Origin: Candidatus Nezhaarchaeales archaeon
GTDB taxonomy: Archaea; Thermoproteota; Methanomethylicia; Nezhaarchaeales; JAWCJE01
Direction: 5' to 3'
Assembly (NCBI GenBank): GCA_038853715.1
Contig: JAWCJE010000001.1
Location: 1 to 64,000, forward strand
DNA length: 64,000 nucleotides
Below, in pieces: positions 40,649 through 61,507 of this stretch; position 1 is the stretch's first letter; every line of letters begins with the position of its first letter. The notes beneath the pieces are model-generated. The model saw only the letters and a program-made list of their open reading frames with translations, was not told the origin of the DNA and did no database searches. The translations under genes and the position numbers were made by a program.

Positions 40649-42580
40649 TTGTTCGGGTACGCTGGATGGATCCTGTTCGTGGACTTATCGGAGGGTAGGG
40701 TTCAACGGAGGGCTTTAAGCGAGGATGCGGCTAAGGGCTTCATCGGAGGGCTGGGCGTCAACGTTAAGCTCGCCTACGACCTGATTAAGCCCGGTACCCA
40801 TCCCCTCGAGCCCGATAACCCCATAATTATGGGCGCCGGCCCCTTAATAGCTACCCCGGCGATAGGGGCCGTTAAGGTGGCCGCTACAACGAAGCTCCCG
40901 GCCACGGGCACCGTGGCCACCGGCACGGCTGGAGGGTACTTCGGCTATGCGCTTAAACGCGCTGGCTACGACCACCTGGTGGTAACCGGTCGAGCCGAGA
41001 ATCCAACGTACTTGGAGGTTGTGGATGGAGAGGCCGACCTTAAGGACGCCCGCCACCTAATCGGGCTTGACGCCTACCAAACCGTTAACGCCTTAAAGGG
41101 GAAGCGAGAAGCTGGAGGAAGCGTAAGGAGCGTAGTATCGATCGGTAAGGCGGGGGAGCGCCTTTTAAGCTGGTCCATATGCCTCGTGGACAACGTCTCC
41201 CACCTCGGCAGAGGCGGGATGGGGGCCGTTATGGGGTCGAAGAACCTTAAAGCCGTAGTCGTTCAGGGGAGCGGCAGCATACCTCTAGCCCACCCGGATA
41301 GGGTGGAAAGCTTAACGAAGGAGTTAGCGGCAAGGGCTAGGGCGAAGCTCGGCTTCATTAGGAACTTAACCCGCTTCGGGGTTTGGATCGGCCTCGAGAA
41401 CTGGGCTAAGGCGGGTATGGTAACCCGTAGGAACTTTAGGGAAGCGCGCTCCGAGGAGGAGGTTGAAAAGCTCTGTAGCCGCGAGGAGTTCTTAAAGCTT
41501 AAGGTTAAGTCCGTAGGCTGCCCCAAGTGCCCGGGCCCCTGTAAGGGGTTGTTTAAGGTTAACGGCGGCGAAGTAGCCCTACCGGAGCCCTTAAACGTGG
41601 CAATATGCTTCACGGCTAGGCTTAATGACTGCCCCCTTAAGGAAGGCGTAAAACTCCTCTACGAGGCCACTAGGCACGGTATAGACTGCCTTAACCTCGC
41701 CGGGCTCCTCGACTTCCTCGCTGAATTAAGCGAGAAGGGGCTGGTGGAAGAGGCGAAGCTAGGCTTTAAGCCCGAGCTCACGGTTAAAGCGGTGCTCGAG
41801 CTCGTGAACCTACTAATCGAGCGCAGGGGTATTGGAAGGGCTGCTGCTGAAGGGTGGACGGCCATACTTAAGGAGGTGGGCGTTGAAGCCGGGAGGTACG
41901 CCGTAGAGTTCAAGGGTTTATCGCCAATCTTTGAGGCAAGGGCTAACTTTGGCGCCGAGTCCTTCGGGCACCTGGTTAACCCTAGGGGCCATGAAGGGCC
42001 CGTTCAGCTAACGGTAATCCCCGGGAGGAGCGCGGACGAGCTGCGCAGGTACCTAGCTAGGGTAGGGTGCTCAAGGGAGGAGGTTGAAGGTGTTTTCGCG
42101 GGTGGAAGGTTTAACGTAGCCCTATACACGAAGCACGTGGAGGATTGGAAATACCTTTTGGACTGCTTAGGGCTATGTAGGAGGGAGAGCATCGTAGTAT
42201 TTTACGATGCTGAAACCTGCGCTAAACTATATTCAGCCGTTACGGGGTTTGAAGCCGATGTCCGCCGCTTGAAAAATTCCGCTGAAAGGGTTTGGCTACT
42301 GGAGCGGTTAATTAATGTTCGTGAAGGATTTACGCGAAGCAATGATAAGGCCCCTAAAAGGTGGTTTGAACCCTTAACGTTTAACGGGTTAAAGCTAGGG
42401 CTATCCGATTACTTTAAAACCGTACAGGTTTCGAGGAGCGATATTGAAAAGCTTCTAAGCGATTACTACGCTGCGCGAGGATGCGACATTGAAACTGGCG
42501 TACCGCTTAAAGAAAGCCTATTAAAGTTAGGTTTAAACGTTGAGCTTAACGTTCCAACCTATATTTCTAGTGGAGTTTAG
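40649..42580 (+). CDS. aldehyde ferredoxin oxidoreductase family (tungsten) protein
   Basis: A 643-residue AOR-family enzyme. The N-terminal tungstopterin-binding domain has PLIATPAIGAVK, ATGTAGGYFGYALKRAG and RGGMGAVMGSKNLKAV. The [4Fe-4S] ligands are C291-x2-C294-x3-C298 with a distal Cys in DCLGLC near 513-517. AOR enzymes oxidise aldehydes to acids with ferredoxin, or work in aromatic acyl-CoA reduction. The start is TTG, 6 bases after the deleted dehydrogenase copy. A truncated copy of its 5' end lies at 38842. The substrate is unknown. Confidence 0.9.
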   Translation: MFGYAGWILFVDLSEGRVQRRALSEDAAKGFIGGLGVNVKLAYDLIKPGTHPLEPDNPIIMGAGPLIATPAIGAVKVAATTKLPATGTVATGTAGGYFGYALKRAGYDHLVVTGRAENPTYLEVVDGEADLKDARHLIGLDAYQTVNALKGKREAGGSVRSVVSIGKAGERLLSWSICLVDNVSHLGRGGMGAVMGSKNLKAVVVQGSGSIPLAHPDRVESLTKELAARARAKLGFIRNLTRFGVWIGLENWAKAGMVTRRNFREARSEEEVEKLCSREEFLKLKVKSVGCPKCPGPCKGLFKVNGGEVALPEPLNVAICFTARLNDCPLKEGVKLLYEATRHGIDCLNLAGLLDFLAELSEKGLVEEAKLGFKPELTVKAVLELVNLLIERRGIGRAAAEGWTAILKEVGVEAGRYAVEFKGLSPIFEARANFGAESFGHLVNPRGHEGPVQLTVIPGRSADELRRYLARVGCSREEVEGVFAGGRFNVALYTKHVEDWKYLLDCLGLCRRESIVVFYDAETCAKLYSAVTGFEADVRRLKNSAERVWLLERLINVREGFTRSNDKAPKRWFEPLTFNGLKLGLSDYFKTVQVSRSDIEKLLSDYYAARGCDIETGVPLKESLLKLGLNVELNVPTYISSGV

Positions 42581-43457: not shown

Positions 43458-44540
43458 ATGCCGTACCCTATATCTAAAACCGTGGCTATCGTAGTTGCGG
43501 TGGTCGTTGTCATAGCTATAGTGGCAGCCGCAGTATTTACTATGATGCCTACCGCGCCTCCGGCTCCTGGTGCACCTCCAGCTAAGAAGGTATGGAGATG
43601 GGGGACTGCTGATCCCGCTAGTTACGGTTATAAGGTATCCGCCTTCCTTGTCGACTTTATAAGGAGGAATTTAACGCGTTACGATATTACGGTGTACCCC
43701 TTTGTTTCAACGACGGCTAACATAAAGGCTTATTGTAAGGGGGAGCTTGAATCTGTTTATATTGCCGATCTCGGGTTCTACGAGCTATACACCTTTACTG
43801 GAGCGTTCGAAGGCTTTAAACCCGAAGTTAAAAAGATGCCCCTTCAATCGTTCTGGACGTATACTATGGAGACTTTCATCTTAATACCGGCTGGTAGGGC
43901 TGGAGAAATTAAGAGTTGGAGTGATTTAAGGGGTAAACCGGTGTTTCTAACCCCGGCGGGGTATATGAATCACCTTAACATTCGTAGAGCGTTGAAGGCT
44001 CTCGGAGTCGAGGTTCAACACGTTGAGGTCGATACGAAGCTTGTTTCGAAAGCGCTTGAAGATGGAACTATCGTTGCAACAGCCCTATACACTACGGCAA
44101 CCCTTTCACTACCTACATGGGGTAAGGAGCTCGACATCGCCTATGGTGATAAACTTATCCCCTTAAACCCAACCCCTGAAGAAGTTGAAAAGCTGAAGAA
44201 GGCAGGGTTATCGGTTGTAGATATAACCGTAGATAAGGCTTTTACGAAGATGAAGATGAAGCCACTTTACGGTATACCATTCTTCTTCGGCTACCACGTA
44301 GGCTCAGAGATCCCTGAGGAGGATGTTTACATGATGCTTAAGGTGTTAGAGAAGAATAAAGATGCTTTAACGGCGCTTGAGGCTGGCTTTGCTCCGCTAG
44401 CTAAGGACTTCGCCGGGTTCCAGGTGGCTGGGATACAATCCTGCGATCCAAGCCTTGTTCCAATCCATCCGGGGCTAGCGAAATACCTTAAGGAGAAAGG
44501 CGTGTGGAAGGCTGAATGGGATAAATACGTAGCTCGGTGA
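43458..44540 (+). CDS. TAXI-family TRAP transporter substrate-binding protein
   Basis: A 360-residue extracytoplasmic protein: an N-terminal hydrophobic anchor (residues 8-30), a proline/alanine linker, then a TAXI-type solute-binding domain (WRWGTADPASYGYKVSAFL; DLRGKPVFLTPAGY). It delivers an organic acid to the fused TRAP permease encoded 4 bases downstream. GGGGAGG precedes the ATG and a TTTATAAG box lies about 35 bases before it. Known TAXI ligands include glutamate-like and other dicarboxylates, which fits the CoA-ester genes that follow. Confidence 0.9.
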   Translation: MPYPISKTVAIVVAVVVVIAIVAAAVFTMMPTAPPAPGAPPAKKVWRWGTADPASYGYKVSAFLVDFIRRNLTRYDITVYPFVSTTANIKAYCKGELESVYIADLGFYELYTFTGAFEGFKPEVKKMPLQSFWTYTMETFILIPAGRAGEIKSWSDLRGKPVFLTPAGYMNHLNIRRALKALGVEVQHVEVDTKLVSKALEDGTIVATALYTTATLSLPTWGKELDIAYGDKLIPLNPTPEEVEKLKKAGLSVVDITVDKAFTKMKMKPLYGIPFFFGYHVGSEIPEEDVYMMLKVLEKNKDALTALEAGFAPLAKDFAGFQVAGIQSCDPSLVPIHPGLAKYLKEKGVWKAEWDKYVAR

Positions 44541-44544
44541 AGCG

Positions 44545-46479
44545 ATGCATAAAGCCATAAGCAAAGTAATACCCCTCCTTATTTTTATTTTCTCTTTGGC
44601 ATACTTCTCGATCTCTGTTTATTTCTTTAGCACGGGGTTTATGGGGACCATGTACATAGTTTTAATACTGGTCCCTTTAGCGTTCATAGTTTACGTTTTA
44701 AGAAGCTTAAGGGATGGAACCCTTTACCCTAAGCTTGGTTTTAAGGTAAACGCCTTAATAGCCGCGGTTTACATAGCCCTATGCATCTACCTAATATATT
44801 ACTTGACAAGTGAATATATAAATCTAATTTGGCTTAGGGCTGGAGCGTTTAACCTCGCGGATAAGATCGTTGCGGTAGTGGTATTCCTCCTGATGATGGA
44901 GTATTCGAGGAGGGAGCATAAGGTGCTTTTCTACCTCAACCTTTTCCTAATGTTCTACTGTGTTTACGGATGGCTCTTCCCAGGGGTCTTCGGACACCCC
45001 GGAGTTTCTTGGGAGAGAGTTATAACGTCTTCAACCGTTGAGATAAAGCTGGGTACTTTCGGGACCTACGCGCAGACAGGGGCTGGGATAATTGGGGCTT
45101 TTATGCTTATACTAGGGGTTGCGATAGGGGTTGGTGTTCAGGAGTCCATAGTTAAAGTGATCGTTAAGGGTTTAGGTAGACGGGTAAGCCTTGCCCCTCA
45201 AACGGCGGTTTTAAGCTCCATGGCTTTAGCTACCAGTAGTGGTTCAGGGGCTGCTATCTCAACTCTAACCGGTCAATTCACGATACCGTTAATGAAGAGT
45301 TTAGGCTTCCCACCCGCCTACGCGGCCTCCGTGGAGGGTGCTTCGGCTTTAGGTGGCTTAATAATGCCGCCGGTGATGGCTATAGCGGCCTTCTTAATGG
45401 CTGATTTCCTAGGTGTAAGCTACTTTGAGGTTATGGCTAGAGGGTTTGCTCCAGCCTTCGTATACTATTTTACTATAGCATTCTCAGTTTACCTAATGAC
45501 TTTAAGGTACGTTAGGATGGTTAAAGCTGAAAGGGTTGAAGACGTACTCTCTAAACTAGGAGTAACGCGTTTGATTGATAAGCTGAACTTCATCCTCTTC
45601 TTCACGTGTTTAGCCGCCCTAATATATTTAATGGGAGGGCTTTGGTGGCCTGAGATGAGGGCTGCATTAACTGCTACTACCGCCTTCCTAATAATCGCTT
45701 TAACGTTCCGCGTGATCCTCCACGAGGCGTCGGGCTTAAAGGGTAGGGTTTTTGACCTCCTTAAATGTTTAAGGAGGACTATAGAAGGGTTTACGTTAAC
45801 CCTCGTGGACCTCATGCTCCTCCTCGCGGTTTTAGGGATAATGATAAACCTCTTTACGGTTAGCGGCTGGCTTTTAAAGCTCGGAATGATGATGATGTCC
45901 CTCGGTGAAGCCGGGCCGCTCGCGCTTATAACTATAACGTTTATAATCGGCATGTTCCTCGGTTTAGGCCTCCCGCCATCAGCCACGTACATATTGACGG
46001 CCATAATTATAGCTCCAGCGATGATCGCCCTCGGGTTTAACCCGTGGATAACACATTTCTACGCGTTCTTCATAGCCATGATGTCCGAGTATACACCACC
46101 AACCTCCCTTAGCGCGGCCGTTACTTCTAGAATTGCCGGCGCCTCCTTCATGGAGACCATGCTACGCACACTTCAAGTCTCAATCCCAATATTCTTCTTA
46201 ACATTTACGCTATTCAATTGGGGCGACCTAGTTATTGAGCCTGGGGTAAAGCAGCTAGCCGCGGTCTTAATGGTGACCGTTGGATGCTTAGGCGTATCGT
46301 TAGCGATATACGGTAAATTAAGCAGGCGTAGAGCTCTAGATATAGCTTTAAGGGGTGCGGCTATGGCTCTAGGATTAATGGTGCTATTCCACCCGGAGAG
46401 AACTTTATGTATAGTGATGGCGTTAGTCTTAATACCACTACTAATACTCGGGGTTAGGAGAAGTAGGAAGCTCTACTAA
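44545..46479 (+). CDS. TRAP transporter fused permease (DctQM type)
   Basis: A 644-residue membrane protein joining the small 4-helix and large 12-helix TRAP permease parts, with extra C-terminal helices, as usual for TAXI systems. The signature stretches MALATSSGSGAAISTLTGQF, GGLIMPPVMAIAAFLMADFL and LGLPPSATYILTAIIIAPAM are present. It uses an ion gradient (usually Na+) to import the ligand captured by the binding protein. Directly downstream of that gene in one operon. Confidence 0.93.
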   Translation: MHKAISKVIPLLIFIFSLAYFSISVYFFSTGFMGTMYIVLILVPLAFIVYVLRSLRDGTLYPKLGFKVNALIAAVYIALCIYLIYYLTSEYINLIWLRAGAFNLADKIVAVVVFLLMMEYSRREHKVLFYLNLFLMFYCVYGWLFPGVFGHPGVSWERVITSSTVEIKLGTFGTYAQTGAGIIGAFMLILGVAIGVGVQESIVKVIVKGLGRRVSLAPQTAVLSSMALATSSGSGAAISTLTGQFTIPLMKSLGFPPAYAASVEGASALGGLIMPPVMAIAAFLMADFLGVSYFEVMARGFAPAFVYYFTIAFSVYLMTLRYVRMVKAERVEDVLSKLGVTRLIDKLNFILFFTCLAALIYLMGGLWWPEMRAALTATTAFLIIALTFRVILHEASGLKGRVFDLLKCLRRTIEGFTLTLVDLMLLLAVLGIMINLFTVSGWLLKLGMMMMSLGEAGPLALITITFIIGMFLGLGLPPSATYILTAIIIAPAMIALGFNPWITHFYAFFIAMMSEYTPPTSLSAAVTSRIAGASFMETMLRTLQVSIPIFFLTFTLFNWGDLVIEPGVKQLAAVLMVTVGCLGVSLAIYGKLSRRRALDIALRGAAMALGLMVLFHPERTLCIVMALVLIPLLILGVRRSRKLY

Positions 46480-46749: not shown

Positions 46750-48090
46750 ATGGGTGTAACGGAGGATTTAGCCGATTTTATTGTTAGCGTGGGCTACGAA
46801 GATCTTCCAAACGAGGTTGTAGAGCGTGCAAAGCTTTGTATCCTAGATTGGCTTGGCGCTGCTTTAGCGGGTTCGTTAGAGCCTCCGGCTAACATAGTAA
46901 CCTCAATCATTAAGGAGGCCGGTGGGAGGGAGGAATCCACTATAATCGGTATGGGTGTTAAAACCTTCTGCGTAAACGCTGCGTTAGCTAATGGGGTGCT
47001 TGGGCATACCGTCGAGTTGGACGACGTCCATGAAGAGGCCATTATCCATCCGGCAGCACCTGTTCTTCCAGCGGCTTTAGCCGTTGCAGAACGCGTTAAT
47101 GCTAGCGGTCGAGACCTTATAGTATCCGTTGTTTTAGGTTACGATGTTGAAATAAGGATTGGGAAAGCCGTGAACCCGTCGCATTATCGGTTTTGGCATC
47201 CTACGGGTACTTGCGGTACCTTTGGAGCTACAGCGGCAGCTGGTAAGATTTTAGGTTTGAACGGCGAGGAAATGGTGCACGCTTTAGGGATTGCTGGAAC
47301 GCAGGCGGCTGGCTTAATCGAGGTTTTCGGGACGATGAGTAAGCCCCTCAATCCTGGAAGGGCCGCTGAAAACGGTGTTTGGGCCGCGCTTCTAGCTCAG
47401 AAGGGCTTTACGAGTACGAGAAGAATACTTGAAGCTGAGAGAGGATATTGTAGAGCGACCTCCAAGGACTTCGACCCCGGCAAAATAACCGAAAAGCTAG
47501 GAGAAAAGTTTGAAATAGTAAATAACGTATTCAAGGTTCATGCCTCCTGCGGCCATACGCATGGCGCTATCGACGCCGCCCTCCTATTATCTAAGGAGTA
47601 CAACGTTAAACCTGAGGACATCGAAAGGGTCGTGGTTAAAACGTATCCTATCGCCGTAGACGTCGTCGGTAGAAATTATGAGCCAAAGACTGCCTCCGAA
47701 GCGAAGTTTAGCCTCCCCTACTGCTTAGCCGTCACGCTAGTTTATGGCAGGGTTGGTTTAACCGAGTTTTCCAAGGAGAAGTTGAACGATCCTAAGGTTC
47801 GGGAGCTTTCAAGGAAGGTTACGGTTACTACTGACCCCGAATACGTTAACGTCCGATTGGGTTCCGCGAAAGTCGTCCTGTACACCATAGATGGAGGTAG
47901 GTTTGAATGCCGCGTAGACACCCCGAAGGGTTACCCCGAGAACCCAGTAACGGAGGCGGACTTAGAAAGGAAATTTATAGAGCTCGCCTCCCTCGTACTA
48001 CCCGGGGAAAGGGTTAGGAGGATCATAGAGGCCGTGAAGGGCTTAGAGGGGCTTGAAAGGATAACAGCTTTAACTGATCTACTTCGTTAG
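46750..48090 (+). CDS. MmgE/PrpD family protein
   Basis: A 446-residue enzyme of the MmgE/PrpD family: LADFIVSVGYEDLP, LGHTVELDDVHEEAIIHPAA with the conserved acidic/His cluster, HPTGTCGTFGATAAA and YPIAVDVVGR. The family includes 2-methylcitrate dehydratase, cis-aconitate decarboxylase and iminodisuccinate epimerase. With the TRAP transporter upstream and a CitE-like lyase plus CoA ligase convergent downstream, it most likely acts on a C4-C7 di- or tricarboxylate. It starts with ATG after GGGGAG. Which reaction it catalyses cannot be read from sequence. Confidence 0.9.
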   Translation: MGVTEDLADFIVSVGYEDLPNEVVERAKLCILDWLGAALAGSLEPPANIVTSIIKEAGGREESTIIGMGVKTFCVNAALANGVLGHTVELDDVHEEAIIHPAAPVLPAALAVAERVNASGRDLIVSVVLGYDVEIRIGKAVNPSHYRFWHPTGTCGTFGATAAAGKILGLNGEEMVHALGIAGTQAAGLIEVFGTMSKPLNPGRAAENGVWAALLAQKGFTSTRRILEAERGYCRATSKDFDPGKITEKLGEKFEIVNNVFKVHASCGHTHGAIDAALLLSKEYNVKPEDIERVVVKTYPIAVDVVGRNYEPKTASEAKFSLPYCLAVTLVYGRVGLTEFSKEKLNDPKVRELSRKVTVTTDPEYVNVRLGSAKVVLYTIDGGRFECRVDTPKGYPENPVTEADLERKFIELASLVLPGERVRRIIEAVKGLEGLERITALTDLLR

Positions 48091-48211: not shown

Positions 48212-49111
48212 CTACATATTGGATTTTAGAATCATCCTTTTAACGACCATTTCGTGGAGCGCTAATATTTCTTTAGCCATTTTATACGTAACCTCATCGA
48301 TCATCCTTCCATCAACGGAAGCGGCGCCTAAACCCCTCGCCTTAGCCTCCTCATAAGCCTCTATCACCTTCTTAGCTGAGTTAACGTCCTTCTCCGAAGG
48401 AGAGAAGACCAGGTTAATGGGTTCAATATGCGTTGGATGGATACACATCTTACCTTTAAATCCTAGGCTTAACGCTATCTTCGACTCCTTGATTAGCCCC
48501 TCCTTATCTATTATGAGGCCTAGGAAGGGAGTATCTATAGCTGGGATTCCAGCTACTCTCGCGGCTAAGGCTAAACGTGATCTAGGATAGAGGAGCTCGG
48601 TTTCCTCAGGGGAAATGGCGAAGTAGCTTCGTCCGAAGTCGCGCATGTAATCGGCGGCTCCGAACCCCACTGCAACTACACGTTTACTCGCAGTAACTAT
48701 CTCGTTTACGTTTAAGATCCCTTTAGCGCTTTCAACAAGCGGAATTATACCGATTTCAGCCGGCCCCTCCTCTCCCTCCATAAGCTTCTCCAGCTCGAGA
48801 ATATCGTCCCTAGATTCGGATTTAGGGAGCATGATGGCGTCAATCCTCTCTCGAATGACGAACTTTAGGTCTTCCTTGGTTAAGCCCGTCGCTAACCCGT
48901 TCACCCTAATGACAACGTTGTGACCGGCCTCCTTCAGTAATCCGATGGCGTCTTTAGCTAGCCATCTGGCTGTTTCCTTCTCCCTCATCGGGACAGCGTC
49001 TTCCAAGTCTAGGATAATGGCGTCAGGTTTTTCATCCTTAGCACTTTGTATAAGCCTCCAGTTATTCGCTGGGACGAAAAGCATGGACCTCAGCAGCTTT
49101 AACCGGTCCAT
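48212..49111 (-). CDS. HpcH/HpaI aldolase, CitE/malyl- or citramalyl-CoA lyase-like
   Basis: A 299-residue TIM-barrel lyase of the CitE family with SMLFVPANNWR, the Mg-binding LDLEDAVP, LPKSES, GFGAADYMRDFG and GKMCIHPTH. Such proteins cleave citryl-, malyl-, beta-methylmalyl- or citramalyl-CoA. It is read after the two CoA-ligase subunits (8 bases after the alpha gene), so a CoA ester made by that ligase is probably its substrate: malate to glyoxylate + acetyl-CoA, or citramalyl-CoA to pyruvate + acetyl-CoA. Confidence 0.88.
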   Translation of the reverse strand: MDRLKLLRSMLFVPANNWRLIQSAKDEKPDAIILDLEDAVPMREKETARWLAKDAIGLLKEAGHNVVIRVNGLATGLTKEDLKFVIRERIDAIMLPKSESRDDILELEKLMEGEEGPAEIGIIPLVESAKGILNVNEIVTASKRVVAVGFGAADYMRDFGRSYFAISPEETELLYPRSRLALAARVAGIPAIDTPFLGLIIDKEGLIKESKIALSLGFKGKMCIHPTHIEPINLVFSPSEKDVNSAKKVIEAYEEAKARGLGAASVDGRMIDEVTYKMAKEILALHEMVVKRMILKSNM

Positions 49112-49119
49112 GGTTCTTC

Positions 49120-50016
49120 CTACCTCTTAAGGATTTTAGCCGAGGTTAAGGCTAGTTCGAGTGGGCTATTAACCACGTAGGCTCCAGCCTCTTTAAGAAG
49201 CCTCTCCTTACTTTCCGCCGTATCCCTTCCCCGTTGAATAAATGCGCTCGCGTGTGAAAACCTGATACCGCTGGGTAGAGACCTTCCAGCTATGTAGACT
49301 ACGAGGGGCTTCGTAAACCTACCCTCCTTAATTACCTCAGCGGCTTCGCTCTCCATAACCCCGCCGATCTCCCCAAACATCACGACGAGGTCCGTTTCAG
49401 GGTCCTTCTCGAAAAGCTCTAGGTATTCAGCGGCGGTCGTACCTACGACCACCTCCGTACCCGTATGAACAGCGGTACTTATTCCTAACCCCTCCCTACA
49501 TATAGTCCATGAGACTGTGCTCGTTTGACCTCCGCTTCTAGATATTACACCTACATGACCGGGCTTAAACGCCTCCTCCGCGACTTCCTTCGCCCCTCCG
49601 ATCCAACCGCATAAAGCCTTCCCGGGACTAATGATCCCCAGCGTCCCTGGACCGATTACCCTAGCGTTCTTCTCCTTCGCTCTAGCGATGATCTCCAAGA
49701 TGTCGTGCAACGGAACCCGTTCGACTGGCATAACTAATGTCTTTATTCCGGCGTCTAAGGCTTCTAGGGCGGCGTTCTTAACTAATGGGGCTGGAACGAA
49801 GGTTGCACTCATATCCATGGGTCCGTGCTCCTCGATAGCTTCCTTAACCGTGTTGTATACTGGTACGCCCCAAACCTGCTCGCCTCCCCGGCCCGGAGTT
49901 ACCCCAGCGACGACCTTCGTGCCGTATTCAACCATAAGTCTAGTGGCGAATTCACCCGTTCTACCGGTTATACCTTGCACGAGTACCGTGGTTTTCTCGT
50001 CTATGATTATCGCCAT
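49120..50016 (-). CDS. sucD: succinate/malate-CoA ligase alpha subunit
   Basis: A 298-residue SucD-family protein: CoA-binding Rossmann N-terminus (TTVLVQGITGRTGEFATR), RVIGPGTLGIISPGKA, VGVISRSGGQTST and the phospho-His loop IRFSHASAFIQRGRDTAESK. The usual GHAGA around the catalytic His is SHASA here, a noticeable change. It forms an operon with the beta subunit (8 bases apart) and the CitE-like lyase, so malate-, itaconate- or citramalate-CoA ligase activity is as likely as succinate-CoA ligase. Confidence 0.88.
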   Translation of the reverse strand: MAIIIDEKTTVLVQGITGRTGEFATRLMVEYGTKVVAGVTPGRGGEQVWGVPVYNTVKEAIEEHGPMDMSATFVPAPLVKNAALEALDAGIKTLVMPVERVPLHDILEIIARAKEKNARVIGPGTLGIISPGKALCGWIGGAKEVAEEAFKPGHVGVISRSGGQTSTVSWTICREGLGISTAVHTGTEVVVGTTAAEYLELFEKDPETDLVVMFGEIGGVMESEAAEVIKEGRFTKPLVVYIAGRSLPSGIRFSHASAFIQRGRDTAESKERLLKEAGAYVVNSPLELALTSAKILKR

Positions 50017-50024
50017 ACTACCAC

Positions 50025-51635
50025 CTAAACGGGTACTCGATACTTCCTTCGGAACTCGTCTAAACCGTGAAGCGGAAGCTCAATGGTTATCGCTTTTCCT
50101 CCGTATAGCTCACATTCCACTTCACATGCTAAACACTCATTACAAAGCCTTTTAAGCTGCTCAGGGCTTCCAGTTAAAGCGGGTTTTCCGCCCTCTATTT
50201 TTAAGCAGGCTCTACCATACCACCTGTCCGCTTTTATACACGCGAAACCACACTTCGGCGCGATACACCTAGCGAGGCTAATGGTTACCTTACCGGTTTG
50301 AGATGTGAAGGAAAGGTGTTCGCCTAAGGGGCCCTGCTTCCCTTCATACTCCTTAGGAGGGCTTGTCTCCTGTTTCCTCTTATAATCCTTTATTAACGTA
50401 ATCATTCTATCGGCGAGGAAATCCATGTTATAGATGTTGTCACGCCCGTAAAGCTCCCAACGTAGTGGTACGTCCTTTAACCCTTCCCTTATAATCCTAT
50501 GAGTTTCACGCTCTTTATTTCCAGCTATTAAGATTAAGGCCGGGAAGCCGGGCCTTAACCTAGCTTCCTCCCTTAGAGCCTTTACGAGGGCGTAAGCGTG
50601 ATACCATTGTTCTTGATTAGCAAGAACCGCTCCAGCTAAACAGTAGCCTTCAAGCCCGGGTATTGATAGTAGTATCTTTATGGCCCTGTAAACCTTTGAC
50701 GCTGCGGGATTCCCACTAGTATCTGCGTAGGTGGCTAGTTTAAGCCCCCTCCTCATTAAGGCGTCGGCTGCGAGCATTGAAGCTCCTCCGCCGATACCGT
50801 GGAAGGCTATGTAGCCTCCTTTCTCAACTTCGTGGATGTTTGGATTTAACTGTACGAAGTAGCAGGTCCCCCTATAATCCTCCTCCTCCACCTTCCACGC
50901 TATCTTCTCAAGTTCGGTGGGAGGCCTAGCCATATCGCGAGGCAATTCCACTTTAAACTCTGGGTGGCGGAACGTTGAATTATCGTCTATTGTTATTCGG
51001 CAGTCCGCCGCAATGATCCTTCCATCCCTCGTTAAAACGAGCGGGTTTACTTCAACCGTACTAGCGTCGTTTTTCGTAAAAACATCGTAAAGCTTACGAG
51101 CGATATCGCTTATCGAGGCCACCACGTTCGGGGATTCTATAAGCTTTAATACGAGCTTCTGCGCGTCAGAGGGTTGAAACCCGTGAAGGTAGTTTACGTT
51201 CACCGATGATATTTTCTCCGGATGCTTCTCCATTACCTCCTCTACGTCTACGCCTCCTTCAGTACTGAAGAGGATGGTTGGACCCTTAACCTTGTAGGAG
51301 TCGTTAACGATTATGCTTAAAAAGAACTCTTTCTCCACGTTGAGCTTCTCTTCTGCTAAAAGCTTTTCCACCTTTAAACCCTTAATCTCCTTCCCTAGTA
51401 GTTCGCGCGCTACACCTTCAGCCTCTAAAGGTGTGTTCGCAAACTTTATCCCGCCGGCTTTAAACCGACCTGTAGTTAATATTTGCGCCTTAATCACGAC
51501 CGGTTTACCTATTTTTTCAGCCACCTTTACGGCTTCGTACGGTGTGGTTACTATGTCGCCCTCCGGAACGGGGATACCAACGCTTTTAAGCAGATTCTTC
51601 CCTTGATACTCATACAGCCTGACCATGGAGGTCAC
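50025..51635 (-). CDS. sucC: ATP-grasp CoA ligase beta subunit with C-terminal 8-Cys ferredoxin-like domain
   Basis: A 536-residue protein, about 140 longer than normal SucC. Residues 1-400 are an ATP-grasp CoA-ligase beta subunit (LYEYQGKNLLKSVGIPVPEG, GRFKAGGIKFA, VEVNPLVLTRDGRI, FHGIGGGASMLAADAL). The extension carries C457-x4-C462-x3-C466-x10-C477 and C498-x2-C501-x2-C504-x3-C508, enough for two [4Fe-4S] clusters, and ends AITIELPL. Spacing and ending recall the iron-sulfur domain of RLI/ABCE1 (a similarity, not a proven relation). The start is GTG behind AAAGGGG. The first gene of the ligase-lyase operon. A redox-sensing or electron-carrying role is speculative. Confidence 0.88.
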   Translation of the reverse strand: MTSMVRLYEYQGKNLLKSVGIPVPEGDIVTTPYEAVKVAEKIGKPVVIKAQILTTGRFKAGGIKFANTPLEAEGVARELLGKEIKGLKVEKLLAEEKLNVEKEFFLSIIVNDSYKVKGPTILFSTEGGVDVEEVMEKHPEKISSVNVNYLHGFQPSDAQKLVLKLIESPNVVASISDIARKLYDVFTKNDASTVEVNPLVLTRDGRIIAADCRITIDDNSTFRHPEFKVELPRDMARPPTELEKIAWKVEEEDYRGTCYFVQLNPNIHEVEKGGYIAFHGIGGGASMLAADALMRRGLKLATYADTSGNPAASKVYRAIKILLSIPGLEGYCLAGAVLANQEQWYHAYALVKALREEARLRPGFPALILIAGNKERETHRIIREGLKDVPLRWELYGRDNIYNMDFLADRMITLIKDYKRKQETSPPKEYEGKQGPLGEHLSFTSQTGKVTISLARCIAPKCGFACIKADRWYGRACLKIEGGKPALTGSPEQLKRLCNECLACEVECELYGGKAITIELPLHGLDEFRRKYRVPV

Positions 51636-51770: not shown

Positions 51771-52871
51771 TTATGGGGAGCCTAAGAGGAGTGGGGCATA
51801 GGTTAGGATTACTCCCCCCGCTACTACGGAGGCTATTTGGCCCCCAGTGTTGCATGCTATCGCGTGCATTAATAGCCAGTTGTCAGGGTCTTCGCGTCTA
51901 GCTATTAGGTGTGCCGTCCTCGCCGCCATGGGAAATGCGGATATCGCTGTAGCTCCGATTAAAGGGTTTATCTTCCCCCTCGTAAGGAGGTATGCTAACT
52001 TAGCGGATAGAATGCCGAGGGTTAATGCTAAAACGAAGGCTACTACGCCTAATGCAAATACGAGTAAGGTTTGTATCGTTAAGAATTCCTCAGCCCTCAT
52101 AGTCCCGCCTATGGTGATCCCTAAAAGCAGGGTTACGATGTTGTTTAACTCGTTTTCCGACGTCTTCCTCAACCTTTCCACTACCCCGCTTTCCTTCATG
52201 AAGTTCCCTAGCATTAAGCTACCCATCAACGGGGTTCCCATCGGCGCTACGATACCTGTTATTAAAGTTACCACTACCGGGAAGAGTATGCGGATAACTT
52301 TAGGGTAAGATCTTGGCTCATACCTCATTCTAACCAGTCTCTCCTTACGGGTGGTAAGCGCTTTAGATATTGGGACTTGAAGGATCGGAATGGACGCTAT
52401 GTAGGAGTATGCGCATACAGCGACTGCTCCAAGCATGTGTGGAGCGTGCTTCGACGTAACGTAGATGGCCGTCGGCCCGTCCATGGCCCCGATTATCCCT
52501 ATGGAGGCCGCCTCAAGCGGTTTAAACCCTACTAGTAGGGCGAAGATGAGCGTGATGAAAATACACATCTGTGATGGTACGGCGAGTAATAGGAGCCAAG
52601 GGCGTTCTAGGAGGGGACCGAAGTCGCACATGGCGCCTACCCCTATGAAGATTAAGCATGGGAATAGCTCCGTTACAATGCCCAAGTTGTAAATATGCCA
52701 AAGGATGCCTTCCCCCGGCTTCATTAGTTCCGCGTAGGGTACGTTAACTAAGATAGCCCCGAAACCTATTGGTAATAATAGAAGGGGTTCGTAGCGTTTT
52801 ACTACTGCAAGATAGATAAGTAGGCAGCCCACCCCGATCATTACTAGGTTTCCAGCAGGGAAAGGTAACAT
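51771..52871 (-). CDS. mmdB: Na+-translocating decarboxylase beta subunit (OadB/MmdB)
   Basis: A 366-residue multi-spanning protein of the OadB/MmdB/GcdB family, the channel that couples decarboxylation of carboxybiotin to Na+ export. The ion-site segment GIIGAMDGPTAIYVTSKHAP and the helix INPLIGATAISAFPMAAR are conserved; LLMHAIACNTGGQIA replaces the usual HAMGPNVAGQI. It forms an operon with the biotin carrier and a gamma/delta-type subunit (28 and 4 bases apart). The carboxyltransferase is 8 kb away at 61939. Confidence 0.93.
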   Translation of the reverse strand: MLPFPAGNLVMIGVGCLLIYLAVVKRYEPLLLLPIGFGAILVNVPYAELMKPGEGILWHIYNLGIVTELFPCLIFIGVGAMCDFGPLLERPWLLLLAVPSQMCIFITLIFALLVGFKPLEAASIGIIGAMDGPTAIYVTSKHAPHMLGAVAVCAYSYIASIPILQVPISKALTTRKERLVRMRYEPRSYPKVIRILFPVVVTLITGIVAPMGTPLMGSLMLGNFMKESGVVERLRKTSENELNNIVTLLLGITIGGTMRAEEFLTIQTLLVFALGVVAFVLALTLGILSAKLAYLLTRGKINPLIGATAISAFPMAARTAHLIARREDPDNWLLMHAIACNTGGQIASVVAGGVILTYAPLLLGSP

Positions 52872-52899: not shown

Positions 52900-53292
52900 T
52901 CAACCTATTACGACTAAAACATCGTCACTCTTTACGCTTTGCCCCTCCGAAACCGCTATCCTCTTAACGACGCCGGGTTTAGGAGCGTATATCTCATTCT
53001 CCATCTTCATAGCCTCCAAGACCAGAAGTACATCGCCAACCTTAACTTTATCGCCCACCTTACACTTTATCGATGTAATCGTCCCTGGGATAGGAGCCCT
53101 TACTACGCCTTCTCCACCTGTAGCCTCCATCATCGGGGTTTTAGGCTCAATTTTAAGTTCCCTTCTCTCGATTATTGGCGTGACCGATGGCCTCAGCACC
53201 TCAGAAACAGGAGTTGACGGCGCTATTCCAACCTCTTCCACCTCAACCATGAAGGTTTTCCCCTCAATGCTGACCTTAAACCTCCTTTTCAC
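52900..53292 (-). CDS. mmdC: biotin carrier (biotinyl-lipoyl) subunit
   Basis: A 130-residue protein with a front strand-rich part, a proline-containing hinge (residues 45-60) and a biotinyl domain with EAMKMENEI; K96 is the biotinylation site. It carries CO2 between carboxyltransferase and membrane beta subunit, or to a ligase. Neighbouring subunits define it as part of the Na+-pump decarboxylase rather than acetyl-CoA carboxylase. Confidence 0.93.
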   Translation of the reverse strand: MKRRFKVSIEGKTFMVEVEEVGIAPSTPVSEVLRPSVTPIIERRELKIEPKTPMMEATGGEGVVRAPIPGTITSIKCKVGDKVKVGDVLLVLEAMKMENEIYAPKPGVVKRIAVSEGQSVKSDDVLVVIG

Positions 53293-53296
53293 CTTA

Positions 53297-53623
53297 CTAT
53301 CTCCTCCGGATCGGTTTCTCCATTAACCCCATCCTACCGGCTATACTCCAAACCTTAGGTTGTACGTTCCCCCTTGAAGCGGTGATCGACGCTTGCAGCG
53401 CTGACTTCATCCCCATGTAGGAGGTAACGGCGGCAATAGCCGCCGCTTTCTCCTCCTCGCTAATCCCTTCACCGACCTCCTCCTTCGATGGGGCTTCCCC
53501 GACGAGTACCCCCCTCTTAAACGACCTCTTCAGTATCTCGCAGATAACTATGACTAATACGAGGGCTGAGAACATCCCTAACGCTCCCAGCGCGGTGATG
53601 GCAACGCCGAAACCCAAGGACAT
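53297..53623 (-). CDS. mmdD: decarboxylase gamma/delta (OadG/MmdD) subunit
   Basis: A 108-residue protein with one N-terminal membrane helix (residues 5-30), an acidic linker, and the OadG-type end EEEKAAAIAAVTSYMG followed by VWSIAGRMGLMEKP. The family anchors the carboxyltransferase to the membrane beta subunit. It ends 4 bases before the biotin carrier gene. The C-terminal WSIAGRMGLME motif reappears in the protein at 63526, which lies next to the carboxyltransferase. Confidence 0.85.
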   Translation of the reverse strand: MSLGFGVAITALGALGMFSALVLVIVICEILKRSFKRGVLVGEAPSKEEVGEGISEEEKAAAIAAVTSYMGMKSALQASITASRGNVQPKVWSIAGRMGLMEKPIRRR

Positions 53624-55832: not shown

Positions 55833-57398
55833 GTGGAGGGGATGGTTAAAATCGTCGAATTCCGGGTTAAACGATTCAACCCGGAGAAGGGTGAAACCTA
55901 TGAGTCTACGTATAGGGTGCCGGTTCGAAGGGGTATGACGATCCTTGACGCCCTAATGTACATTAAGGAGAACATCGACGAAACATTAACCTTTAGGTAT
56001 TCCTGTAGGATGGGGATATGTGGTAGTTGTAGCGTAATGGTTAACGGTAAACCTATGCTGGCCTGTTATACTCAAATATTGGATTTAGGGGCTGACGTAT
56101 TAACTATTGAGCCGCTCGCCAACCTTACGGTGATCAAGGACTTAGTGGTTGACGTAAAGCCGTTCCTGGATAAGGTGCTCGAGGTAAAGCCTTATATTAT
56201 TAGGTCTGAGGAGGAGTTAAGGAGGCCTGAAGAGTTTATTCAGGGCGTTGAGGAGCTTAAGAGGTACTGGGACTTCTCCTTATGCATTAAGTGCTCTGTT
56301 TGCTACGCTGCATGTCCAGCCTCCATTGATAACGCGTTCCTAGGTCCATCGGCCCTATCCACCAATTACAGGTTCATTGTTGATACGCGTGACGCCGGTT
56401 TAAACGAACGGCTTAAGAAGGCTTCTGAAAGCGTTTGGCTATGCACCTCATGCAACTCGTGCACGTTAACCTGCCCTAAGAACGTTGATAGCGCCCTTTC
56501 AATTGTCGAGGAGAAGAGATTACTGGTTGAAGAGGGGCGGATATCGAAGAGAGTTATCGACGTATTGACGAGCTCCTTTAAATATCATAACCCGCTCGGT
56601 ATGCCTAGGGCTAAGAGGCTTGATTGGGCTAAGGGCTTAAACGTTAAGGAGGCCGTAAGCGTAGGTAGATGTGATACGCTTCTCTTCATGTGCTGTCTAC
56701 CATCCTACGACGCTAGGCTTCAAGAGGTAGCGAAGGCAGCCGCGTCACTACTCGCAGTAATAGGAGTAGACTACGTAGTGCTTGGAAGCGAGGAGGAATG
56801 GTGTTGTGGGGATCACATTTTAAGGATGGGTGAAAGGGGTCTTTTCGAGGAGTTAGCGGCTCATAATGCGTCCAGCTTTAGGAGGTATGGCGTAAGTAGG
56901 ATTATAACCGTTTCACCGCATTGCTACTACGCGTTTAAGAATGAGAAGCCTTACACGGACGTTAAAGCTACGGTTCAACACTATACCGAGGTTTTAGGAG
57001 AGGCCTTGGATAAGGGTAGGCTTAGGTTTTCAAAGGCTATGAGTAAGCGGGTAATGTACCACGATCCATGCTTTCTAGGTAAGCGTAGCAAAGTTTACGA
57101 GGCGCCCCGGAAAATCCTTGAAGCAATACCAGGGTTAAAACTCGTTGAGGCTAGAAGGAATAAGGAGAATAGCTTCTGCTGTGGCGGGGGAGCTGGACGT
57201 ATATGGATTGAGGAAGCCCCCTACGATAAACGGCCCTGCGTAAACAGGGTTAAAGAGGCAGTGGAGTTAGACGTCGACGTTATAGCTACGTCTTGCCCAT
57301 TCTGCATAAGCACCTTAGAGGACGCCGTAAAAGTATTGGAGGTTGAAGGGAAAATAGCGGTAAGAGACATCCTAGAAATAGTTAAGGAGACATTATAG
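55833..57398 (+). CDS. tfrB: fumarate reductase iron-sulfur subunit fused to HdrB-like CCG domains (TfrB-like)
   Basis: A 521-residue protein in three parts: a [2Fe-2S] domain (C58, C63, C66, C78), two cluster motifs (C151/C154/C157/C161 and C204/C207/C210/C214), and two CCG domains (MCCLPSYDARLQ, EEWCCGD; YHDPCFLG, NSFCCGGGAGR). This is the architecture of thiol:fumarate reductase TfrB of methanogens (about 490 residues), whose CCG part resembles heterodisulfide reductase HdrB. The electron partner may be a thiol or a quinone. The start is GTG with AGGAGG upstream; an ATG at 55842 is less well placed. Confidence 0.9.
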   Translation: MEGMVKIVEFRVKRFNPEKGETYESTYRVPVRRGMTILDALMYIKENIDETLTFRYSCRMGICGSCSVMVNGKPMLACYTQILDLGADVLTIEPLANLTVIKDLVVDVKPFLDKVLEVKPYIIRSEEELRRPEEFIQGVEELKRYWDFSLCIKCSVCYAACPASIDNAFLGPSALSTNYRFIVDTRDAGLNERLKKASESVWLCTSCNSCTLTCPKNVDSALSIVEEKRLLVEEGRISKRVIDVLTSSFKYHNPLGMPRAKRLDWAKGLNVKEAVSVGRCDTLLFMCCLPSYDARLQEVAKAAASLLAVIGVDYVVLGSEEEWCCGDHILRMGERGLFEELAAHNASSFRRYGVSRIITVSPHCYYAFKNEKPYTDVKATVQHYTEVLGEALDKGRLRFSKAMSKRVMYHDPCFLGKRSKVYEAPRKILEAIPGLKLVEARRNKENSFCCGGGAGRIWIEEAPYDKRPCVNRVKEAVELDVDVIATSCPFCISTLEDAVKVLEVEGKIAVRDILEIVKETL

Positions 57399-59513: not shown

Positions 59514-60794
59514 CTAGGCTGTAGCTGGCTTATAGGCTGACTTATACGTTAGGACGTTGCCCATTAAGGCCTTAAGCTGCGGCGGTATGATGTCCTTCCT
59601 AGCTAGCTTCTCCCTAACCTTTAACACCATCCTCGGTATGTCTATACCCATGGGGCATACATCTTTACATCTACCGCAAAGCGTACAGGTGAACGCCTGT
59701 GTTGCTGTTGCTTCTAATCCTCTCGTGAAGAGGGTCCAAGGTGTACCGAAGCCTCCCATATAGGGCCCATGCTCACCGTAGTAGCCTCCAACCACGTTCC
59801 ATACTGGGCACGTGTAGAGGCATCCTCCGCACTTAATGCATGTGAACGCCTCCCGGAAGTCTGGGTCCACTAGCATATCGCTTCTACCGTTATCGAGTAG
59901 GATTACGTCTATTTCAGACGGACCTGAGGCCGGCGTTACTAGTACTCGCTCTATGTCGTTTGAGCGGCTTAAGCCTATGGTGCTCATGAAGGTAACGGTG
60001 GCACCGCCAGTAGCGTATACGGGTATTACTTTAGCGTAGAGCTCACAGGTATACCTATCCGGCATTACCTTTTCAATACCTGCTAACACTATATGCTTAT
60101 CGGGTAGCGTAGTAACTAACCTATCGTTAGCTTCATTCGTTAATATGTAGATTAACCCCGTATCCGCGGCGATAGCGTTAGCCCCTGAAAATCCTACCCG
60201 GGCCTCCATAGCCTTCCTCCTAACGAACTCTTTAGCGAACCTAACTAGCTCCCTAGGTTCAGGCGGTAGCTCTCTACCAGCTAGCTTTGAGTACGCTTCA
60301 GCGGCTCTTTGACGTGGAACCGTTATGGAGACCCCTGTCGGATGTGATGGCTTCCATTTAAGTAGTTGAAGCACTATGGCGCCTACATCGGTTTCCCAAG
60401 CCTTAATCCCGTGTTCCTCCAAGAACTCGTTAAGCTCTATTTCTTCGCTTGTTAAGCTTTTTACTTTAACTATTTCCTTCTCATCGCCTATCATCTTGAG
60501 GATTAATCGATTAGCTTCATCGCCGTCCTTGGCGAGGTAAACGTTCATACCCTGCTCCTTCATGGCCTTAATAGCCTGCGATATATACACATCCATCTTA
60601 TCGAGGGCAGCCCTACGAATACCCTTTAACTCCTCAGCCCACTCCTCAACTTTAAACGTTTGAAGGGACTTAGCCTTCCTATCCGTGTAGTGTTTAACGG
60701 CTCGCACTATGGCTTGATACTGGAACTGGTCGGCTGATAAGTCGATTAAACGGTTAAAGTACCCCTCGAAGTCAACTTTAACCACTGCTTTCAC
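59514..60794 (-). CDS. lutB: LUD-domain iron-sulfur protein (LutB/LldF-like)
   Basis: A 426-residue protein with an N-terminal LUD domain and two ferredoxin motifs, C319-x2-C322-x2-C325-x3-C329 (CIKCGGCLYTCP) and C370-x2-C373-x2-C376-x3-C380 (CTLCGRCKDVCP). With the CCG protein encoded before it (starts overlapping by 4 bases) it forms the LutAB part of the iron-sulfur lactate oxidation complex, which converts lactate to pyruvate or takes electrons from another dehydrogenase. No lutC is adjacent. A weak CACCGT/ACGGTG hairpin lies after its stop at 59479-59494. Confidence 0.88.
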   Translation of the reverse strand: MKAVVKVDFEGYFNRLIDLSADQFQYQAIVRAVKHYTDRKAKSLQTFKVEEWAEELKGIRRAALDKMDVYISQAIKAMKEQGMNVYLAKDGDEANRLILKMIGDEKEIVKVKSLTSEEIELNEFLEEHGIKAWETDVGAIVLQLLKWKPSHPTGVSITVPRQRAAEAYSKLAGRELPPEPRELVRFAKEFVRRKAMEARVGFSGANAIAADTGLIYILTNEANDRLVTTLPDKHIVLAGIEKVMPDRYTCELYAKVIPVYATGGATVTFMSTIGLSRSNDIERVLVTPASGPSEIDVILLDNGRSDMLVDPDFREAFTCIKCGGCLYTCPVWNVVGGYYGEHGPYMGGFGTPWTLFTRGLEATATQAFTCTLCGRCKDVCPMGIDIPRMVLKVREKLARKDIIPPQLKALMGNVLTYKSAYKPATA

Positions 60795-61507
60795 CTCAAC
60801 CTTGAGAGTATATAGCGGCCGAGCTCCACTACTTCGATGGGCCGTTTGGTTACGTCTAATCGACGTTCAGCCGCTATACCTAGGTTTAATAGGCAAGTGG
60901 GGCAAGCTGTAATTAGTTTTGAGACGCCTAATGGCTCAATGTCTCTTTCAAGCCTTACTTCAGCCATCCTAATGCTAAGTTCAGGGGCTACAGCCCATAA
61001 GCCTCCCCCACCACCGCAGCAAAGAGCTTCACGGCCGGATGTTAACGGTTCAATAAGGGTTGAAGCAGCTTGAAGAACCTTTCTGGGTGCTTCAAACTCG
61101 CCGCTCAGTCTTCCAAGCTCGCAGGGGTCATGATACGTAACCTTTTCCTTCGGCTCGGCGAAGCTAAACTTACTCAAGGATTCAGCTAAGGCTTGCGTTA
61201 TATGCTTGAATGGTGGAAGCCGGGCTTCAAACTCCCTGTACTTCTTAAAGGCGTGATAGCAGCCAGCACATCCAGTGATTAAGAGGTCTACGTTCGCTTT
61301 AGCTATTTGTTCAGAGGTATCGTGAATTACCCTTTCAGCCTCATCGAGGCTCCCGATTAGGAGTAGGGGGTCTCCGCAACATCCTTCATCGCTTAGCTTA
61401 ACCACCTCGTAACCGATTTTCTCTAAAAGCTTTACGTGATCCTCGACGAGGTCTGGGAACCTATACCTAAGCGTGCAACCAGCCCAATAAAGCGCCTTCA
61501 ATAACAT
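60791..61507 (-). CDS. lutA: CCG-domain iron-sulfur protein (LutA/LldE-like)
   Basis: A 238-residue protein with two CCG cysteine-rich domains (GCTLRYRFPD and DEGCCGDPLLLIGSLDEAE; then YHDPCELGRL and LCCGGGGGLWA), as in LutA, GlpC and HdrB. It binds a non-cubane or standard [4Fe-4S] cluster and transfers electrons. Translationally coupled to lutB (overlap of 4 bases). A 23-bp palindrome covers its promoter. The start ATG at 61507 follows GGAGTAGG. Confidence 0.88.
   Translation of the reverse strand: MLLKALYWAGCTLRYRFPDLVEDHVKLLEKIGYEVVKLSDEGCCGDPLLLIGSLDEAERVIHDTSEQIAKANVDLLITGCAGCYHAFKKYREFEARLPPFKHITQALAESLSKFSFAEPKEKVTYHDPCELGRLSGEFEAPRKVLQAASTLIEPLTSGREALCCGGGGGLWAVAPELSIRMAEVRLERDIEPLGVSKLITACPTCLLNLGIAAERRLDVTKRPIEVVELGRYILSRLR

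Follow-up and report, generated by a model that had tools for sequence, protein, structure and literature searches.

A citryl-CoA-synthetase-like ligase subunit with a ferredoxin-like domain in a Nezhaarchaeales genome, and its possible role as an iron-sulfur gate

In the reverse TCA cycle, as in citrate catabolism, the cleavage of citrate is a key step; to our knowledge, little is known about its regulation in prokaryotes. In Hydrogenobacter thermophilus, a two-subunit, SucCD-like citryl-CoA synthetase (CcsA/CcsB; PDB 6hxq) works together with a citryl-CoA lyase (CCL) of the citrate-synthase fold, which splits the CoA thioester; the solved CcsA chain, of 429 aa, has no iron-sulfur (Fe-S) domain. 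Human ATP-citrate lyase (ACLY) carries a phosphorylated linker between its beta and alpha parts, and in bacterial operons that combine the citrate lyase CitDEF with a Na+ oxaloacetate decarboxylase (OAD), CitE and OAD-type genes lie side by side. In open-licence papers we found no description of an Fe-S or ferredoxin domain on SucC or on a citryl-CoA synthetase; an account elsewhere is possible.

The locus described here lies in a genome of a Candidatus Nezhaarchaeales archaeon (GCA_038853715.1, contig JAWCJE010000001.1); “the window” denotes the whole stretch of 64,000 nucleotides that was analyzed. Like CcsA/CcsB, the locus encodes a two-subunit, SucCD-like ligase with GGG and GNP loop motifs and a lyase proposed to split the CoA thioester, but this lyase is CitE rather than a citrate-synthase-fold CCL, and the position of Arg369 is occupied by Leu. 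The Citrate_bind-like domain and the proposed overall chemistry recall ATP-citrate lyase (ACLY/AclAB), and the extension of the ligase subunit sits, as does the phosphorylated linker of the human enzyme, between the beta and alpha parts; in contrast to ACLY/AclAB, however, the window has separate genes, an Fe-S domain instead of the phospho-linker, and no citrate-synthase-type module in the genome. The arrangement of CitE beside OAD-type genes resembles the CitDEF operons, whereas CitF is absent from this genome and the acyl-carrier/CoA-transferase route would give way to a CoA ligase. Finally, SucC itself (PDB 3ufx; NF001913/TIGR01016) shares the ATP-grasp fold and catalytic residues and is the best PDB hit by E-value, yet the target falls under the curated cut-offs for SucC, has different acid-binding loops and an additional linker and Fe-S domain, and an ordinary SucC is encoded separately in the same genome. 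The features of the locus, in window coordinates, are as follows.

43458..46479, plus strand: TAXI-type TRAP transporter (solute-binding protein and fused permease), a possible acid importer
46750..48090, plus strand: MmgE/PrpD-family dehydratase, divergent; a recurrent neighbor in the CitE clade
48212..49111, minus strand: CitE (HpcH-HpaI C-C lyase), with a proposed role in cleavage of the CoA thioester; separated from SucD by 8 bp
49120..50016, minus strand: SucD-type alpha subunit, with phospho-His H255; 8-bp gap after SucC-Fd
50025..51635, minus strand: fusion of a SucC-type ATP-grasp CoA-ligase subunit and a 2[4Fe-4S]-type domain (SucC-Fd), 536 aa from GTG
50370..51626, minus strand: part of SucC-Fd resembling SucC and the citryl-CoA synthetase large subunit, residues ~4-422; K49, R57, E195, N197, and D211 conserved
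50322..50369, minus strand: linker of SucC-Fd, residues ~423-438; pLDDT below 50 at 428-436 in the AlphaFold2 model
50046..50321, minus strand: ferredoxin-like domain of SucC-Fd, residues 439-530
51771..52871, minus strand: beta subunit of a Na+-translocating decarboxylase (OadB/MmdB type), located upstream of SucC-Fd
52900..53292, minus strand: biotin carboxyl carrier protein, with AMKM motif
53297..53623, minus strand: small membrane protein without a family match, resembling a decarboxylase gamma subunit in position and size

The ORF encoding SucC-Fd is intact in one open frame of 536 aa, although the ATG of Met4 (plus-strand position 51626) is the likelier start, since relatives begin with MVRLYEYQ. 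Pfam placed ATP-grasp_2 at residues 6-200 and a Citrate_bind-like match at 270-399, and no Pfam family scored above its cut-off over the final ~100 residues. An AlphaFold2 model built from 48 sequences (mean pLDDT 88) was confident over the SucC part (1-422) and over the 439-530 domain, with low confidence in the linker. The original prediction of a SucC-type subunit with a C-terminal dicluster Fe-S tail was of a genuine fusion, which also occurs in independent genomes. That a frameshift or misassembly joined two genes might be suspected from relatives in which SucC and Fd are separate genes next to each other, followed by SucD (G004, G006, and G225), but this can hardly be credited: apart from the single open frame, the same fusion is present in an independent MAG (L031; 76% identical over the whole protein and 81% over the domain), in Ignisphaera (L032), in G002 and G005 (57-58% identical), in another genome of the window's clade (L072), and throughout the CCL clade described below. 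The two observations that had been named as counting against a fusion, a join at about residues 430-450 and the lack of the extension in close relatives, were both looked for, and neither holds: L031, L032, G002, and G005 are fused. We therefore regard an assembly join or frameshift as ruled out.

A search for the domain combination across genomes, as originally suggested, was made with five domain sequences as queries against one genome per GTDB species. It returned 164 encoding stretches, the best 80 of which were kept; these constitute the sampling outside Thermoproteota. SucC was encoded on the same protein or close by in 79 of the 80 kept relatives (~2.5 kb away in L046), and in the remaining one, L059, the domain stands at the start of the contig and is followed by SucD. 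Nearly all kept loci with enough contig included SucD. While the kept relatives (best 80 of 164) cover many bacterial and archaeal phyla, the domain is patchy in Thermoproteota, where 6 of the 398 genomes sampled encode it.

Two sets of loci could be distinguished by their lyase. The CCL set, found mainly in Aminicenantota, Caldifarciminota, Calditrichota, Acidobacteriota, and syntrophs, encodes a fused SucC-Fd followed by SucD; a citrate-synthase-fold CCL is next in 38 loci (among the best 80 of 164), most of which also contain genes for an HD protein and an aconitase-family large subunit (gene identities taken from L084). The CitE set, comprising Thermoproteota (including the window), Archaeoglobus, Chloroflexota, Myxococcota, and Thermodesulfobacteriota, has CitE as its lyase. 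Here CitE adjoins in 25 loci, again among the best 80 of 164, with Fd split in 21 and fused in four, and MmgE/PrpD genes are common neighbors. When the tree was built from only the SucC part, each set formed a clade of its own (support 94 and 98); the lyase changed once on this tree and the fusion state three times. Hydrogenobacter CcsA and two poorly alignable SucC rows fell on long branches of uncertain placement. The conserved partners of the domain (ligase, lyase, aconitase or PrpD) are non-redox enzymes. In two of the loci we also noticed (i) a small MoaD/ThiS-like ORF ending in LAAGG (L116, 3024-3245, minus strand), directly upstream of the split SucC, Fd, and SucD in G225, and (ii) an additional, divergent pair of SucC and SucD in a Dehalococcoides MAG (L034, 12202-14207), immediately after the Fd-linked ligase and CitE.

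Among solved structures, the closest relatives of the ligase by sequence were Thermus SucC (E = 6.8e-59) and Hydrogenobacter citryl-CoA synthetase (6hxq; E = 1.1e-43); by fold they were succinyl-CoA synthetase (SCS), citryl-CoA synthetase (CCS), and ATP-citrate lyase (ACL). Its scores are below both SucC cut-offs (NF001913/TIGR01016; 236.3 vs 370 and 229.7 vs 375.55), and the genome's second SucC, 17 kb away, passes (456 > 375). The ATP-grasp catalytic residues K49, R57, E195, N197, and D211 are invariant in the Fd-linked ligases, and the phospho-His of SucD, H255, is conserved in 72 of 72. The acid-binding loops (GGG, DTSGNP, and A[NS]QEQ, the last being ANQEQ in the window) are of the CCS/ACL type, unlike those of SCS. 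Judged by these characters and by the lyase genes beside it, the ligase groups with the citryl-CoA synthetases and not with ordinary SucC, and its substrate is probably a citrate-like acid. Rather than a plain SucC-type maker of CoA thioesters with an odd tail, as had been supposed, it appears to be a ligase of the citryl-CoA synthetase type with a lyase as its partner, CitE here and CCL in many bacteria. Neither a protein of the citrate-synthase/CCL fold (PF00285) nor CitF (PF04223) was found in the window genome, which is 95% complete; CitE must therefore obtain its thioester from another source, most obviously the ligase encoded next to it.

In ferredoxins, motif-1 Cys I-III and motif-2 Cys IV ligate one cluster (A), and motif-1 Cys IV and motif-2 Cys I-III ligate the other (B). 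The tail of SucC-Fd contains eight Cys, which we checked at the codon level (C457, C462, C466, C477, C498, C501, C504, and C508), and the original prediction arranged these in two quartets. All eight are indeed present, but C477 is shared with L031 alone among 81 aligned domains, and the fourth motif-1 position, Cys in 75 of the 81, is D470 (codon GAC) in the window. The likely ligand set is therefore seven Cys and one Asp; following ferredoxin topology rather than a structure, we assign C457, C462, C466, and C508 to cluster A, and D470, C498, C501, and C504 to cluster B. Across the alignment, all eight ligand positions are Cys in 57 of 81 domains. CCL-type domains have eight Cys without exception (51/51, with Asp in 0/51), whereas exactly one Cys is replaced by Asp in 24 of the 30 CitE-type domains, always in cluster B and never in cluster A. 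The replaced position is motif-1 IV in six domains (including D470 of the window), motif-2 I in 17, and motif-2 II in one (L055); two Asp never occur together, and no residue other than Asp is found. On the SucC tree the Asp sites imply six state changes, with a minimum of four if Asp is scored against Cys alone. Because a Cys-to-Asp replacement needs two base changes, drift is an unlikely cause. If changes were independent and even over the eight positions, the chance that six of six fall in cluster B would be ~0.016, a rough figure limited by the relatedness of the sequences. The search patterns for the 80 loci left three of the four cluster-A positions unconstrained, so the invariance of those three is no sampling effect.

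The fold of the domain (AlphaFold2 pLDDT 89) returned many ferredoxin-fold domains among its best Foldseek hits, but with E of 0.3-2, and a profile search of the PDB with the domain gave weak ferredoxin hits alone, among them a ferredoxin subunit of 2-oxoglutarate oxidoreductase. The tail had been likened to the iron-sulfur domain of RLI/ABCE1. In its spacing (Cx4Cx3Cx3C...Cx2Cx2Cx3C) and 2[4Fe-4S] layout it does resemble RLI/ABCE1 and the PorD/KorD ferredoxins; however, the similarity is weak, and the domain has its own conserved sequence, CxECLACE, with one Asp ligand in the window. Pfam gave no match to PF04068 (Fer4_RLI) at E<=10, and the structure comparison proposed earlier went against the likeness, as ABCE1 was absent from the Foldseek hits. 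Comparison by hhalign was suggestive at most (87.5% probability for the domain vs RLI and 51% vs PorD-type ferredoxins, compared with 98% for RLI vs PorD). Membership in the RLI/ABCE1 family is accordingly not supported: the domain forms a separate branch among the dicluster ferredoxins, and its likeness to RLI is that of dicluster ferredoxins in general.

What might such a domain do on a ligase? The unique Fe is easily lost from Asp-ligated clusters, and the sensor of NsrR is a [4Fe-4S] cluster with an Asp ligand (PMC5411485); together with the non-redox neighbors, this leads us to favor a regulatory gate. The recurrence of Cys-to-Asp in one cluster site likewise suggests redox, oxygen or iron sensing rather than an accident of fusion, in line with the earlier idea of redox regulation or oxygen sensing, of which the gating itself is the part that we infer. 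As a tentative reading that falls a little short of even confidence, we thus propose a citrate-type CoA ligase with CitE as its lyase and the Fe-S domain as its gate, cluster occupancy and substrate being likewise presumed. SucC-Fd and SucD would use ATP and CoA to activate citrate or a closely related hydroxy-polycarboxylate via the phosphohistidine of SucD, and CitE would cleave the thioester to acetyl-CoA (or a homolog) and a 2-oxo acid, probably oxaloacetate, which could feed the neighboring biotin/Na+ decarboxylase, or fumarate reductase and the methylmalonyl route. The ferredoxin-like domain would hold an all-Cys cluster A and an Asp-ligated, labile cluster B, the state of which (reduced, oxidized, or, under O2, NO or a shortage of iron, converted to [3Fe-4S] or lost) may act as an on-board switch that sets ligase activity or docking with SucD or the lyase.

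Two other roles for the domain can be weighed against this gate. A structural, non-redox role has been proposed for some Fe-S domains of non-redox enzymes, and the main rival explanation is that the domain holds the SucC-SucD-lyase assembly together, the clusters being folding staples without redox function. This would suit the non-redox neighbors and the finding that the domain may be fused or free, such that non-covalent binding to the ligase would be needed in many species; moreover, the subunit D of archaeal RNA polymerase, a non-redox protein with a ferredoxin-like domain, is among the weak Foldseek hits. We nonetheless consider it unlikely, as a replacement that recurs, is always Asp and always affects one cluster would be odd for a mere staple. 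Quite improbable is a working electron carrier that ties the ligase to a ferredoxin-dependent oxidoreductase or to the adjoining fumarate reductase, despite the 2[4Fe-4S]-type layout, the resemblance to the 2-oxoglutarate oxidoreductase subunit, and FrdA-like genes near some loci. Such genes occur at some loci only, no oxidoreductase is a conserved neighbor across both clades, and the ligase reaction itself involves no electron transfer. The coupling to a ferredoxin-dependent partner that was originally entertained is for these reasons not favored.

A further alternative concerns only the substrate and overlaps with the proposed citrate-type gate. The Arg369 position is Leu or Phe in 29 of 29 CitE-clade ligases (Leu in the window) and Arg in 37 of 37 of the CCL clade, and Arg is retained in CCS and nearly all SCS rows; the substrate of the CitE clade, in which Trp344 is fixed, may therefore have moved off citrate. 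The ligases of this clade could act on a dicarboxylate or branched acid, converting, e.g., malate to malyl-CoA, or itaconate or citramalate to citramalyl-CoA, with the Fe-S domain still regulatory. The PrpD-family neighbors would agree with such a substrate, as would the match of CitE to the citramalyl-CoA lyase model RipC/Ccl, below its cut-off (186.6 of 375 bits). Conversely, citE is the top model for the lyase, again with a score short of the cut-off (239.8 of 443.4 bits), the loop motifs are CCS/ACL-like, and the upstream biotin/Na+ decarboxylase genes suit oxaloacetate; on balance, we rate a non-citrate substrate as rather unlikely.

The surroundings in the window would fit import of a citrate-like acid, its cleavage to acetyl-CoA and oxaloacetate, and then a route to propionate. 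Within ~20 kb are genes for a PycB/OadA-type alpha subunit, methylmalonyl-CoA decarboxylase alpha, mutase, epimerase, ordinary SucCD, and fumarate reductase. The decarboxylase genes of L031, the nearest relative, do not adjoin SucC-Fd, and their linkage is therefore not conserved.

Several features of this region were observed in passing. Window positions 43458-64000 and G000:C1:63930-72260 (L121) form a compact acid-import/fermentation island, with genes for TAXI-TRAP, PrpD, CitE, the ligase, the biotin/Na+ decarboxylase, fumarate reductase, methylmalonyl-CoA decarboxylase alpha, OadA/PycB, mutase, epimerase, SucCD, and acyl-CoA dehydrogenase. Beside FrdA is encoded a FrdB-type subunit that carries an additional, cysteine-rich CCG (TfrB-like) half (55833-57398), and a LutB/LdhH-like iron-sulfur protein and, next to it, a CCG-domain protein (59514-61507) resemble a split L-lactate dehydrogenase large subunit. 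An aldehyde:ferredoxin oxidoreductase-like ORF lies at 40649-42580, its NCBIfam match being mainly over the first 224 residues.

With more reserve than for the window itself, we suggest that ATP-dependent cleavage of citrate or a related acid may be Fe-S-gated in many uncultured anaerobes, and that the CitE-type sensor has repeatedly been made labile by the Cys-to-Asp replacement in one of its clusters. The ligase-linked Fe-S domain occurs in dozens of uncultured lineages from both domains of life, and the repeated replacement in one cluster yields a precise, testable prediction. As this citryl-CoA-synthetase branch scores under the SucC cut-offs, it could be overlooked, or misnamed succinyl-CoA synthetase, in surveys of carbon fixation. 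If the proposal is true, a conserved Fe-S domain on the ligase would tie the redox or iron status of the cell directly to carbon flow.
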